Below are positions 24,508 to 40,824 of a stretch of DNA of 41,803 nucleotides, piece after piece; position 1 is the first letter of the stretch, and each line of letters starts with the position of its first letter. This DNA is from a virus, in the IMG/VR virus record IMGVR_UViG_3300025655_000086, positions 1 to 41,803 of that record. One strand, written 5' to 3'. The notes beneath the pieces were generated by a model that worked only from the letters and a program-made list of their open reading frames with translations, was not told the DNA's origin and searched no databases. A program made the position numbers and the translations under genes.

Positions 24508-26268
24508 CTACATATTCCCTTGAATTAATCTTTTCGATGATTCTGTGGTTTCTATTAATTGTTGTGTTAGCATGTTACTTTGTTGCAGTTCTTCTAACAA
24601 ACTAAGGGTGTTGTCTTCTGGACCTGAAATACCTAGAATTCTCTCTATAGAACTTCCTAAAACACTTACTGTTTCATTTAAAAATCTCGGTCCTGTATCC
24701 TCTGGTTCTTGAGTTTTTCTGTTTATTTCGGCTGTGTTCTCTTTTGTAGATTCACTGGATTGAACTAATCCTCCTAAAAACTTACCATCTTGTTCAGTTT
24801 GCCTATTAAGTTCCGCCATTAACTGATCGTGATTTAATTTTTGTAGTTCAAGTTCTCTTTTTGCAGCAGCGGCAGCCGCTACTTGGTCATTTTTTTCTTC
24901 TGGTGGTTTTGGAATATTAATGTCTTCTTCTTCTTTATCACTAAACCAAGAAAACCATGCTTTAGCAGAAGCTATCGCCGCAACTAAAGCAATTAGAGCA
25001 CCTACTGCTAGATATACCGGACTAAATAAGGCAGCAAGGACTACACCTATAGGTATTAATGTAAGGGTAGCTAAACCAACTACAGCTCCTACAAATATAG
25101 ATGTGGCCATTTTTATATCTGAAAATATATTTTTAAATTTATCAGAAATACTTAATCCAAAATCTTTTATTTTATTTTTTAAATTATCTAACCCTACTCT
25201 AGATTCTTCAAATTTTTGTTTAACTTTTAAAACAATACCTTGAAGTCCTCCCAAAGATAAATAAAATATTATTGCTTTATCTATTAAATTTTTAAGTTGA
25301 TCAGATACAAAACCACCTATACCTTGTGCAAGAGGTAATATAATATTATATAAGAACGAAAAAGATTCTGTCAAAGGTAACAAGGCTTCGTCTTTTACTA
25401 TTGATAATATATTACCGAAATCAGCAGTCTGTTCTTTAGCTAACTCATCACGGGCACCTAAATTTTCAGCTATTGTTGTAAATTTAATTGCTTCGTTTCC
25501 AAAAATTTCCGAAGCAATTCCTATTTTATAAAATCCCTGACTCGCATCCCCAGCCACACCTTTAAAAGTTTCAGAAGCTTTTACAAATGCATCTTTTAAT
25601 ATTTTTTGTGCTTCTGCTGAATCCTTCGCTGCTGATAACCTTTCTCTAACATCTCCTATACCTAGCATTGTAAGTCTTTCATAACCCTTAATGCTAGTAT
25701 CCATTACTAACTTCATAACCGATTGTAAAGGTCCAGCTAATTGTGGACCTAATTCAGATTGAAGCGTAGCCATAGCAGCAGTAACCTTATCTCCCATACC
25801 AGCCAACTTTTGCGCCGGGAATGTTGCTGCTAGAGCGTCAACAGCATCTACAAGCTTATCGGTTGATACCCCGTACATAGCTCCCGATTCTAGTATGTTA
25901 TCAGATAGATTATTTGTCTGATCCCTGGACAAGCCTAAACTTGCCTCTAAATCTGCCATAACCTTAGCAGTATTCGCGTTTTGAGTTCCTGTTAATCTTT
26001 GTTGATTTATTAATCCTGATATTCCAGCGGTGTTTCCTTGAAGACCAGCTTCCATTGCTGCTATCCCAGCAGCAAACCTCTCCTCAATACTCCCACGAAG
26101 GTTGTTTATAGAAGGTCCTAAAGTATCTCTAGTCTGTGCGTAAGTTCTACCTAAAGCTAAGGATGTTTTTTGCGCCGTATCGGCAAAAGACAACGCATCT
26201 TTTAAGCTTTTAGTAAGCTCACTCATTGCGGTAGTAAGACCACCTATAACTACATCAGACAATACCAT
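24508..26268 (-). CDS. Tail tape measure protein
   Basis: This is a 586-residue protein, close to T4 gp29 (590 residues), so a tail of roughly T4 length is expected. It is mainly helical and Ala-rich. Residues 1-240 contain phased helices, including LVDAVDALAATFPAQKLAGM and a conserved-looking GIASEIFGNEAIKF segment at 249-263. Residues about 389-440 form two or three hydrophobic helices (IFVGAVVGLATLTLIPIGVV and following), as expected for the part inserted into the host membrane after ejection. The rest is polar with coiled-coil character. It is preceded by an unknown 128-residue gene and followed by tube-junction, wedge and hub genes. Confidence 0.82.
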   Translation of the reverse strand: MVLSDVVIGGLTTAMSELTKSLKDALSFADTAQKTSLALGRTYAQTRDTLGPSINNLRGSIEERFAAGIAAMEAGLQGNTAGISGLINQQRLTGTQNANTAKVMADLEASLGLSRDQTNNLSDNILESGAMYGVSTDKLVDAVDALAATFPAQKLAGMGDKVTAAMATLQSELGPQLAGPLQSVMKLVMDTSIKGYERLTMLGIGDVRERLSAAKDSAEAQKILKDAFVKASETFKGVAGDASQGFYKIGIASEIFGNEAIKFTTIAENLGARDELAKEQTADFGNILSIVKDEALLPLTESFSFLYNIILPLAQGIGGFVSDQLKNLIDKAIIFYLSLGGLQGIVLKVKQKFEESRVGLDNLKNKIKDFGLSISDKFKNIFSDIKMATSIFVGAVVGLATLTLIPIGVVLAALFSPVYLAVGALIALVAAIASAKAWFSWFSDKEEEDINIPKPPEEKNDQVAAAAAAKRELELQKLNHDQLMAELNRQTEQDGKFLGGLVQSSESTKENTAEINRKTQEPEDTGPRFLNETVSVLGSSIERILGISGPEDNTLSLLEELQQSNMLTQQLIETTESSKRLIQGNM

Positions 26269-29311: not shown

Positions 29312-30298
29312 CTAACTAACTGAAAAATAAAAAGGTGAACTTACAAAAGTTTGATTTAAATAAGTGTACTTTACTGTAATAACGTAAGTTCCAGCGGGAC
29401 CCCCAACACCTGCTCCTAGTAAAGTATTGGATACAGTATTAGTATCGAAATTGTAAAGAATTGTATTATCTGAAGTTATATTTGTATTAGTAAAATCTAT
29501 TATTAAAGTTCTACTCGGTAAAGATGTAGAGTCTTCATTTACTTTTTCTATTTTTACTTGAGGGTTTGTAATATTTATATCTTTAAGAATATTTTTAGTT
29601 TCTTCTGGTATTGTTTTATTTTGAACAGTAATCTCTACAGGAATTTTTAAATCTATAACTGATCCTAATTTAATATGTTTATTTACTAATTTTTCTTTAG
29701 TAGTAATTAATAAAGGTTCTGTTATTGTTGTAAAAGTATCATTATAGAGCTTAAAATAATTAATAAAAGTTTGATATTCAGAGCTTTCAAATAACTTTAC
29801 TGTCCAAATATCAATATAATCTTGAACTGAAGATGCCTGATTAGCTAAAGAAACCCCTTGATTAAAACCAACATTTAAGTTATACCCACCTGAAAGATCT
29901 AAAGACCCATCTAAAACTACAACGTAATCCCCAACACCCGATCTGTATATACCACTAGCATTTGTTCCTGGTGTGTAAAGAGTAGGGTCAACCCAGCCTA
30001 GATTTTGAGATGTAACTCTAGTTCCAACACCATCATGAGGGTTTCCTAAATCAGGATCACCTGAAACCTCAAAATTCATTAAGCATACTGATGAGGCTGT
30101 AGTGCTTATTGTATTTGCAGAGGAATCTAAAACACTACTTGGAGTAGTATTAGCTAGTTTAGAAAATATAGTACAAGCACTAACATCATAAGGGTCAATA
30201 AATTGACCATTATTTATAAATAAAGTTCTTATTGCTACTTTATTATTTACGCTTGGTCGATTGTTACGTTCAACCAGATCTACTCCGTTTAATTGCAT
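29312..30298 (-). CDS. Hypothetical virion-type protein
   Basis: This is a 328-residue protein. It starts MQLNGVDLVERNNRPSVNNK and is rich in Ser, Thr, Asn and beta-strand patterns. The C-terminus has an Ig-like run ending GTYVITVKYTYLNQTFVSSP, which reads like an Ig/FN3-type strand pair and could be a surface-exposed domain. Its ATG lies inside the -1 frameshift extension of the gp26-type gene, which overlaps it by 29 bases. The two are therefore expected to be translationally linked. The context (gp26-type gene before, small Gly-rich protein after) points to a minor virion protein, but the family is not recognised. Confidence 0.55.
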   Translation of the reverse strand: MQLNGVDLVERNNRPSVNNKVAIRTLFINNGQFIDPYDVSACTIFSKLANTTPSSVLDSSANTISTTASSVCLMNFEVSGDPDLGNPHDGVGTRVTSQNLGWVDPTLYTPGTNASGIYRSGVGDYVVVLDGSLDLSGGYNLNVGFNQGVSLANQASSVQDYIDIWTVKLFESSEYQTFINYFKLYNDTFTTITEPLLITTKEKLVNKHIKLGSVIDLKIPVEITVQNKTIPEETKNILKDINITNPQVKIEKVNEDSTSLPSRTLIIDFTNTNITSDNTILYNFDTNTVSNTLLGAGVGGPAGTYVITVKYTYLNQTFVSSPFYFSVS

Positions 30299-30461
30299 CT
30301 TCTTCTCTTTCTAGATCCTCTTTTAACAGTTTAATGAAAACAGACCGCTCTGTCCTTGTGAGAGTTCTCACATCAGAATATGTAAAACCTATTCTTTTTA
30401 CTAATATATAGGCTTCTAGAAGAAGAGAATTTAAATCAATTACTTCTTCTAGTTCACGTTG
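30270..30461 (-). CDS. C-terminal extension of the gp26-type protein read by -1 frameshift
   Basis: This is a 63-codon open stretch in the -1 frame relative to the 248-residue gene. It continues from the TTTTTTC site and ends at TGA 30270-30272. It codes QRELEEVIDLNSLLLEAYIL, then a helical region with FTYSDVRTLTRTERSVFI and KLLKEDLEREEDAIKR. There is no ATG, GTG or TTG between the preceding in-frame TGA and a GTG about 30 codons into the extension, so it cannot readily be made on its own. The helical, charged end with 'L.r.ER..f...L..e.e.E' resembles the C-terminal part of tail assembly chaperones in other tailed phages. The expected fusion product has 308 residues. Confidence 0.75.
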   Translation of the reverse strand, partial: QRELEEVIDLNSLLLEAYILVKRIGFTYSDVRTLTRTERSVFIKLLKEDLEREEDAIKRSRSG

Positions 30462-30467
30462 AAAAAA
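30416..30467 (-). promoter_or_regulatory. Programmed -1 ribosomal frameshift signal
   Basis: The slippery heptamer T TTT TTC lies at 30467-30461 in the zero frame (codons Phe244-Phe245). After an 8-base spacer, CTAGAAGAAG (30452-30443) pairs perfectly with CTTCTTCTAG (30425-30416) across a 17-base loop that can itself form a short AATT/AATT helix. The zero-frame TAG stop is three codons after the heptamer, inside the first stem arm. Heptamer, spacer and stem all fit standard -1 frameshift cassettes. An A AAT TTT site overlaps just upstream. Confidence 0.8.
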
Positions 30468-31195
30468 TTTGCGGTTATTGGTAGGTCAACGACCGAAACC
30501 CCTCCACAAGAATTGCATTCAAATTTTACATTAGTATCTACTCCATAGTCAGTTCTTAAAGTATTTAATATTGTTCTAATATCCCTTAGGGGTAATTTAT
30601 TAACTACAGCAGATATAATGGATTTATCTGTATGTCCGTCAATCTCTAATACGAACCTCCAAAGTTGATCTAAAGATTTTTCTGGGTCAGAAAATATTTT
30701 TTCATCTTTTACTCTAGGATATCTTAATTTAATTTCTTTTTGAAGTATGGGTAGTTTTAAAACAACAGGTTCACAAAAATCATCAGGAACAGGGTTAATA
30801 TTTAATTGTGATAATTTTATTATTGTTTGATTTTCTGCTTTACAGTTAGAACAAATTAGCATAGTATGGTAATCATCTCCATACGATATCTCTCTTAATT
30901 TCATAATTAAGTAAAGCTTGTCCATAGGCAAAATATCTGAAATATTTATATTAGTAACGCATCTATTCAGAATTATATTAACAGGGTCTTCTGATTTATT
31001 AGCTGAAACTAAAACTTTTTCATCCTCAAATGTCATGGGACGTATAGTTATTCCTTGTTCAGGATCAATTAACTTGTAAACTCTACATTCAGAAGGTAGT
31101 TCAACTTCAATCGCATTTTCTGAAGGTAGGTCCTTTAATAACTCATTTATTATCTCATCTTTTGCTGATTGAACAGCAGGGCTTTGTTCTAGCAT
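30449..31195 (-). CDS. 26: gp26-type baseplate hub/tail assembly protein with zinc-ribbon cysteines (zero-frame product)
   Basis: This is a 248-residue protein of the T4 gp26/T4_baseplate type. It has VELPSECRVY near residues 31-40, then GITIRPMTFEDEKVLVSANK at 48-67, RCVTNINISDILPMDKLYLI and MKLREISYGDDY. This follows the family order of a beta-strand 'LPS', 'RP....dEK.LL', 'C......dl..lp..D...L...lR..S.G'. Two CxxC pairs (115/118 and 227/230) could bind one zinc. AAGGAG precedes the ATG. The gene carries a -1 frameshift site at codons 244-245, so both this form and a 308-residue form are expected. By analogy with tail assembly chaperones, the two forms may act on the tape measure. It shares a divergent promoter region with uvsW. 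Confidence 0.75.
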   Translation of the reverse strand: MLEQSPAVQSAKDEIINELLKDLPSENAIEVELPSECRVYKLIDPEQGITIRPMTFEDEKVLVSANKSEDPVNIILNRCVTNINISDILPMDKLYLIMKLREISYGDDYHTMLICSNCKAENQTIIKLSQLNINPVPDDFCEPVVLKLPILQKEIKLRYPRVKDEKIFSDPEKSLDQLWRFVLEIDGHTDKSIISAVVNKLPLRDIRTILNTLRTDYGVDTNVKFECNSCGGVSVVDLPITANFFNVN

Positions 31196-31232
31196 AAAAA
31201 AATACTCCTTAAAGATATACTATAATAGTATA
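31196..31232. promoter_or_regulatory. Divergent promoter with 17-bp perfect palindrome abutting the uvsW start
   Basis: TATACTAT-A-ATAGTATA at 31216-31232 is a perfect palindrome around one central base and ends immediately before the uvsW ATG (31233). On the plus strand it contains TATAAT at 31221-31226, six bases before the ATG. On the minus strand the matching TATTAT lies about 28 bases before the gp26-type ATG, with AAGGAG in between. The element may supply the -10 for both directions: a leaderless transcript one way and a leadered one the other. It could also be an operator. Confidence 0.5.
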
Positions 31233-40790: not shown

Positions 40791-40809
40791 AAAAAATACA
40801 CAAGTATCT

Positions 40810-40824
40810 GTTATATTATAGTAT
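40810..40824. promoter_or_regulatory. Divergent AT-rich promoter between terminase and glycosyltransferase
   Basis: The plus strand reads TTATATTATAGTAT directly before ATG at 40825, and the minus strand reads TATACTATAATATAA. The minus-strand string shares TATACTATAATA with the uvsW promoter palindrome. For the glycosyltransferase, the TATA-like box would be only about 5-8 bases from the ATG. For the terminase it would leave a leader of about 25 bases without an evident Shine-Dalgarno site. Confidence 0.45.

Follow-up and report, generated by a model that had tools for sequence, protein, structure and literature searches.

A probable programmed −1 frameshift joining gp26-type and gp51-type coding sequences in a T4-like phage fragment

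Does the gp26-type gene of a marine T4-like phage end at its own stop codon, or do some ribosomes slip back on a run of T and read on into a gp51-type domain? The question is raised by a 41.8-kb viral fragment from IMG/VR (IMGVR_UViG_3300025655_000086; the window, below, is this whole stretch of 41,803 nucleotides), whose source is a T4-like myovirus and in which we found domains of the T4 portal, the T4 terminase, gp25, gp53, a baseplate wedge protein and a UvsW-type helicase. It is very probable, judging from comparative evidence, that a programmed −1 frameshift on U_UUU_UUC yields a short gp26-type protein (TAC-N) and a long gp26–gp51 protein (TAC-NC).

The gp26-type gene and its junction in the window

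The features needed for the argument are given here with their basis in brackets.

30449..31195, minus strand: zero-frame gene for a T4 gp26-type protein, short form (TAC-N), 248 aa (PF12322, E 2.5e-20; phrog_150, E 3.8e-26)
30461..30467, minus strand: slippery heptamer T_TTT_TTC, codons AAT TTT TTC (sequence; T_TTT_TTY in 67/67 relatives; synonymous constraint)
30449..30451, minus strand: zero-frame stop TAG, three codons past the heptamer (sequence)
30443..30452, minus strand: 5′ arm of the predicted stimulatory stem, CTAGAAGAAG, 8-nt spacer from the heptamer (folding; kept in close relatives only)
30416..30425, minus strand: 3′ arm of the predicted stem, CTTCTTCTAG (folding)
30405..30416, minus strand: GAAGCCTATATA, extension codons 16–19, nearly invariant at synonymous positions (alignment)
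30273..30461, minus strand: −1 extension, 63 codons, predicted gp51-type C-terminal domain (TAC-C) of three helices (sequence; phrog_634; hhalign; AlphaFold2)
30270..30272, minus strand: stop codon of the −1 frame (sequence)
29312..30298, minus strand: next gene, 328 aa, its ATG overlapping the end of the extension (ORF; no Pfam match)
24508..26268, minus strand: tape measure protein (TMP), expected client of the chaperones, not adjacent (phrog_58, E 1.4e-6)

The elements that a sequence-only reading of the window had named are all present. The heptamer TTTTTTC, at plus-strand coordinates 30467-30461, is split as AAT TTT TTC and is thus in the X_XXY_YYZ phase, and a second motif, A_AAT_TTT, overlaps it and is also in phase. 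An 8-base spacer (30460-30453) leads to the predicted 10-bp stem, CTAGAAGAAG (30452-30443) with CTTCTTCTAG (30425-30416), around a 17-nt loop (30426-30442), and the zero frame stops at TAG (30451-30449). The −1 frame continues for 63 codons (30461..30273), which would give a fused product of 308 residues, and overlaps the ATG of the next gene at 30298; upstream of the shift it is open for 8 codons only and contains no ATG, GTG or TTG. A lone slippery heptamer would count for little, as 30 genes of the window contain 168 in-phase heptamers of this type; the signal beyond chance lies in conservation and not in the heptamer alone.

Near-palindromic TATA-rich stretches were seen between divergent genes at 31196-31232, upstream of gp26/uvsW, and at 40791-40824, upstream of the terminase gene, and they resemble paired phage promoters.

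Conservation of the slip site and relationship of the extension to gp51

From IMG/VR, 69 related loci were collected by protein similarity, and 67 were counted, all those whose 3′ end is intact and clearly related; the two left out are one that is cut off (L051) and one at 22% identity with another arrangement (L070). All 67, reaching down to 37% identity, have an in-phase T_TTT_TTC or T_TTT_TTT and a homologous −1 extension of 57–66 codons, and a programmed −1 frameshift giving a short and a long chaperone, as the sequence-only reading had proposed, is the best reading of the locus. The alignment of related phages that it had named as a check came out in its favor as regards the heptamer.

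Codon usage at the site was counted in 46 distinct sequences below 92% identity. The codon preceding the Phe-Phe pair ends in T in 46/46, mostly as AAT or GAT, and the first Phe is TTT in 46/46, against 25% TTC among the Phe codons of these genes; the second Phe is free, with 35 TTC and 11 TTT. A T-ending codon, a fixed TTT and a free second Phe together read as the fingerprint of tandem slippage on X_XXY_YYZ.

Profile matches that span the full length of both the short form and the extension place them in the T4 gp26 / gp51 family, the gp26 family aligning with the full short form and the gp51 C-terminus with the extension. The gp51 profile phrog_634 (‘baseplate hub assembly catalyst’) was matched by 40 of the 52 distinct extensions, and hhalign of the extension profile against the C-termini of T4-like gp51 gave E 1.9e-5 (probability 78%). 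On phrog_150 the short form ends at position 234 and the fused protein reaches position 281 of 282; T4 gp26 aligns from about 10 to 236 and T4 gp51, a single gene, from 3 to 281. Therefore T4 gp51 consists of a gp26-like part and the extension domain, in a gene of its own. By these alignments the −1 extension is the C-terminal domain of T4 gp51, and the homology supports the link, drawn in the sequence-only reading, between the T4 gp26/gp51 proteins and a frameshift system. The short and long forms would share their N-terminus, as judged from sequence. AlphaFold2 models, made separately for the two parts, gave a pLDDT of 87.7 for the short form, with the same fold as the models of SP-15 and Aeromonas phage gp26, and a pLDDT of 89.3 for the extension, which is modeled as three helices and is a conserved protein domain.

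The short form carries two Cys-x-x-Cys pairs (C115/C118 and C227/C230), and all four cysteines are invariant among 34 aligned relatives of the window clade. Cysteines on the short form had been taken as unusual, which does not hold, as Cys pairs are also present in T4 gp26 and gp51. No solved structure related to gp26/gp51 was found in a PDB search, which had no match at E ≤ 0.001; the entry 3klu (YqbN, a TAC-type protein) appeared at a non-significant E of 2.9. Two of the extension alignments, A1 (L002-L069) and A5 (L204-L234), had weak matches to DUF6760 (PF20546), a domain that occurs in contractile injection systems, and these matches hint that gp51-type domains may extend to such systems.

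Helper elements and the arrangement in other phages

The junction region in the window folds at −19.6 kcal/mol, compared with −11.1 ± 2.6 for shuffled sequences (z −3.3). The 10-bp stem pointed out in the sequence-only reading is indeed perfect in the window, but 9–10 of its pairs are kept in only 18/43 sequences, which are close relatives; it is lost in distant ones, being absent from the heptamer-bearing L050, L052, L055 and L067, and was rejected as a universal element. At 44 sites of the window clade, the sequence downstream folds just moderately better than its shuffled versions (median z −1.3), and several lineages have a different hairpin at the same place (L064, L066). Downstream structure is weak or absent in several distant relatives and present in the window and most cyanophage loci. 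At the cyanophage gp26/gp51 junctions (L091, L092, L123-L202) it is strong (median z −2.9 over 45 sites, 37/45 below −2), a hairpin about 5 nt past the heptamer enclosing the gp51 ATG, and most of the sites checked have a Shine–Dalgarno (SD)-like GGAGGG 9 nt before the heptamer. A comparable SD-like upstream stimulator of frameshifting is known from dnaX. For the window clade such a stimulator was rejected: the distance from GGAGGG to the heptamer is ~33 nt, beyond the range of the effect known from dnaX, and many relatives have no GGAGGG upstream of the heptamer. The heptamer is the constant part, with helper elements that vary by lineage.

The codons GAA GCC TAT ATA at 30405-30416 are nearly invariant synonymously across L002-L069, down to about 37% identity, and GAAGCCTATATA is perhaps a further RNA element. 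A pairing partner for it was sought across the relatives and none was consistent, and no repeated motif was found. The invariant GCCTATATA was also considered as a promoter and rejected, as it is neither enriched in the window nor common to the regions upstream of other genes.

Outside the window clade, T_TTT_TTY with gp51 in the −1 frame was found in P-SSM2, S-PM2, HTVC008M, phiM12 and PhiW-14 and in 80/80 cyanophage-type metagenomic loci, two of which have short extensions only (9 and 14 codons). Vi01 also has its second frame at −1, but with a non-canonical slip site. The cyanophages P-SSM2 and S-PM2, as well as HTVC008M, share the heptamer and the −1 gp51 frame with the window; cyanophages differ in having, besides the SD-like element and the stronger hairpin, a start codon near the beginning of the second frame (in the metagenomic loci ATG beside the shift site in 74/80 and GTG in the other six), whereas the window clade mostly has none. 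Cyanophage gp51 is only about 20% of the T4 length (Sullivan 2010, PMC3037559), and a frameshift fusion to gp26 would explain this shortness. In the Straboviridae examined (T4, KP15) gp51 is a full gene: T4 has two separate full genes, gp51 with its own gp26-like part, whereas in the window a −1 shift would give both products from one gene. In the huge phage LR756511.1 (L071), gp26 is followed by a gp51-like domain that has an ATG of its own in a TAATG overlap, and translational coupling may replace frameshifting there.

The sequence-only reading had noted that in many tailed phages the two chaperone frames lie just before the tape measure. This is correct for SP-15, HTVC008M and phiM12, whose gene pair is flanked by the genes for tail tube and tape measure, where tail assembly chaperones are usually encoded, but not for the window, where other genes separate the gp26-type gene from the tape measure gene at 24508-26268.

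The gp51-like extension is in the +1 frame in SP-15, LIS04, GXN1 and RM378 as well as in some two dozen IMG/VR loci (loci L203-L234, L072-L074 and L101; a repeat scan gave practically the same set). When 25 of these +1 extensions were aligned and compared with the −1 extensions, the two proved homologous (hhalign E 2.9e-9). UUU_CGN occurs at the Phe-Phe pair in 19/29 distinct sequences of this branch, and the other loci have NCC_CGA, AAT_CCC_A or TTT_TGG at the same place. At the FFR sites the Arg codon is CGN in 18/18, against 79% AGR among Arg codons elsewhere in those genes, and the second Phe is TTT in 18/18 with the first one free; because the sequences are related, these counts are not independent observations, and coding in the +1 frame may contribute to the retention of CGN. 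Influenza PA-X and the plant amalgaviruses use UUU_CGN as their +1 motif (PMC3498833, PMC5052127), and a literature search found no published report of UUU_CGN +1 shifting in phages. We lean toward the view that the gp26 family is recoded both ways at one Phe-Phe pair, by −1 on U_UUU_UUY in marine T4-like phages and by +1, mostly on UUU_CGN, in the SP-15 branch, and that T4 replaced frameshifting with a separate fused gene. If true, bacterial viruses would also use UUU_CGN, and the +1 side result may be newer than the −1 finding.

Other explanations, mechanism and meaning for T4-like phages

One possible interpretation is that the extension is a separate small gene, gp51, translated from its own start or by translational coupling. 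It is so annotated in P-SSM2, HTVC008M and phiM12, the zero-frame stop is close to the second frame, the cyanophage ATG or GTG by the shift site permits separate initiation there, and the TAATG overlap in L071 fits coupling. In the window, however, the few open −1 codons before the slip site offer no start, and in 36/46 distinct relatives no ATG, GTG or TTG occurs in the −1 frame from the upstream stop to extension codon 12. Coupling also leaves the retention of the heptamer unexplained, the cyanophage ATG sits within the strong hairpin, and T4 gp51 is a full-length fusion, and we consider a separate gene very unlikely.

It is also quite improbable that the slippage is transcriptional, with RNA polymerase adding one extra U at the T run to some mRNAs, so that both proteins would arise by ordinary translation. 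The runs are 6 to 8 T long, with T7 or T8 in some relatives (L053, L058, L062), but most sites are T6C, which is short for slippage; moreover, the constraint follows codon boundaries, since the second Phe may be TTC, as tandem tRNA slippage predicts, and the cyanophage hairpins and SD-like element are ribosomal stimulators. A chance overlap, a sequencing error in an error-prone homopolymer or a broken gene might be suspected in an AT-rich genome where in-phase heptamers are common. The same arrangement and frame are nevertheless found in 67 assembled loci and five cultured reference phages, and the extension is a conserved domain; the comparative data already refute this reading. Site, phase, conservation, absence of another start codon and homology to gp26 and gp51 are direct observations.

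Under the programmed −1 frameshift, a small share of ribosomes would move one base backward on U_UUU_UUC shortly before the gp26-type gene ends: the tRNA-Phe in the P site would re-pair on UUU, that in the A site would shift from UUC to UUU, and translation would go on for 63 more codons. Most of the product would be the short form (gp26 type, TAC-N, 248 aa), and a minor part the long form, which adds the gp51 C-terminal domain (TAC-NC, 308 aa). Both the occurrence and rate of this event and the chaperone role are what we infer. The lambda proteins gpG and gpGT, tail assembly chaperones reportedly treated by Xu, Hendrix and Duda in 2004, are alike in their late −1 frameshift, their short major and long minor forms and the small C-terminal domain from the second frame; they differ in that no sequence similarity is shown, in the Cys pairs of the gp26 type and in that the window gene is not beside the tape measure gene. 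The function is best read as that of TAC-N and TAC-NC chaperones with the same roles as in lambda: by this analogy the short form would coat the tape measure protein, the long form would recruit the tube subunit, and both would be gone before the tail is completed. For lambda, a review describes binding of gpG and gpGT to the tape measure and recruitment of the tube subunit through the T part (PMC5009743). For T4, PMC3004832 counts gp26 and gp51 among the hub assembly chaperones, gp51 being required yet absent from the particle.

The G-T frameshift was described in 2016 as conserved in long-tailed phages ‘except T4’ (PMC5009743). According to later papers that cite it (PMC10885494, PMC12846349), Vladimirov et al. 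2022 (PMID 34826709) identified T4-like TAC genes; some T4-like phages use a separate fused gene, as reported from that work in PMC10885494, and PMC12846349, citing it, states that the TAC-N genes of T4-like phages are known to have poly-T slippery sequences. The link from T4 hub assembly to G/GT, offered in the sequence-only reading as a new inference, was thus preceded by Vladimirov, Gautam and Davidson 2022, as far as PMC12846349 conveys it, and the locus is a well-supported new case and not a new kind of system, because that work, as so cited, already names T4-like TAC genes and poly-T sites. The Vandenendeviridae TAC (phage Adele, PMC12846349) is similar in having a poly-T slip site near the TAC-N end and a −1 extension open in all genomes; its motif, GTTTTT, is unlike the window heptamer.

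By strong comparative evidence, the frameshift reading would connect gp26 and gp51, hub-assembly proteins of T4 that have long been a puzzle, with the mechanism of lambda G/GT, and here there is hardly another way to express the second frame. It would also account for the ‘truncated’ gp51 annotated in cyanophages, and suggests that, in a marine phage group of great abundance, gp51 be re-annotated as the terminal part of a frameshifted protein.
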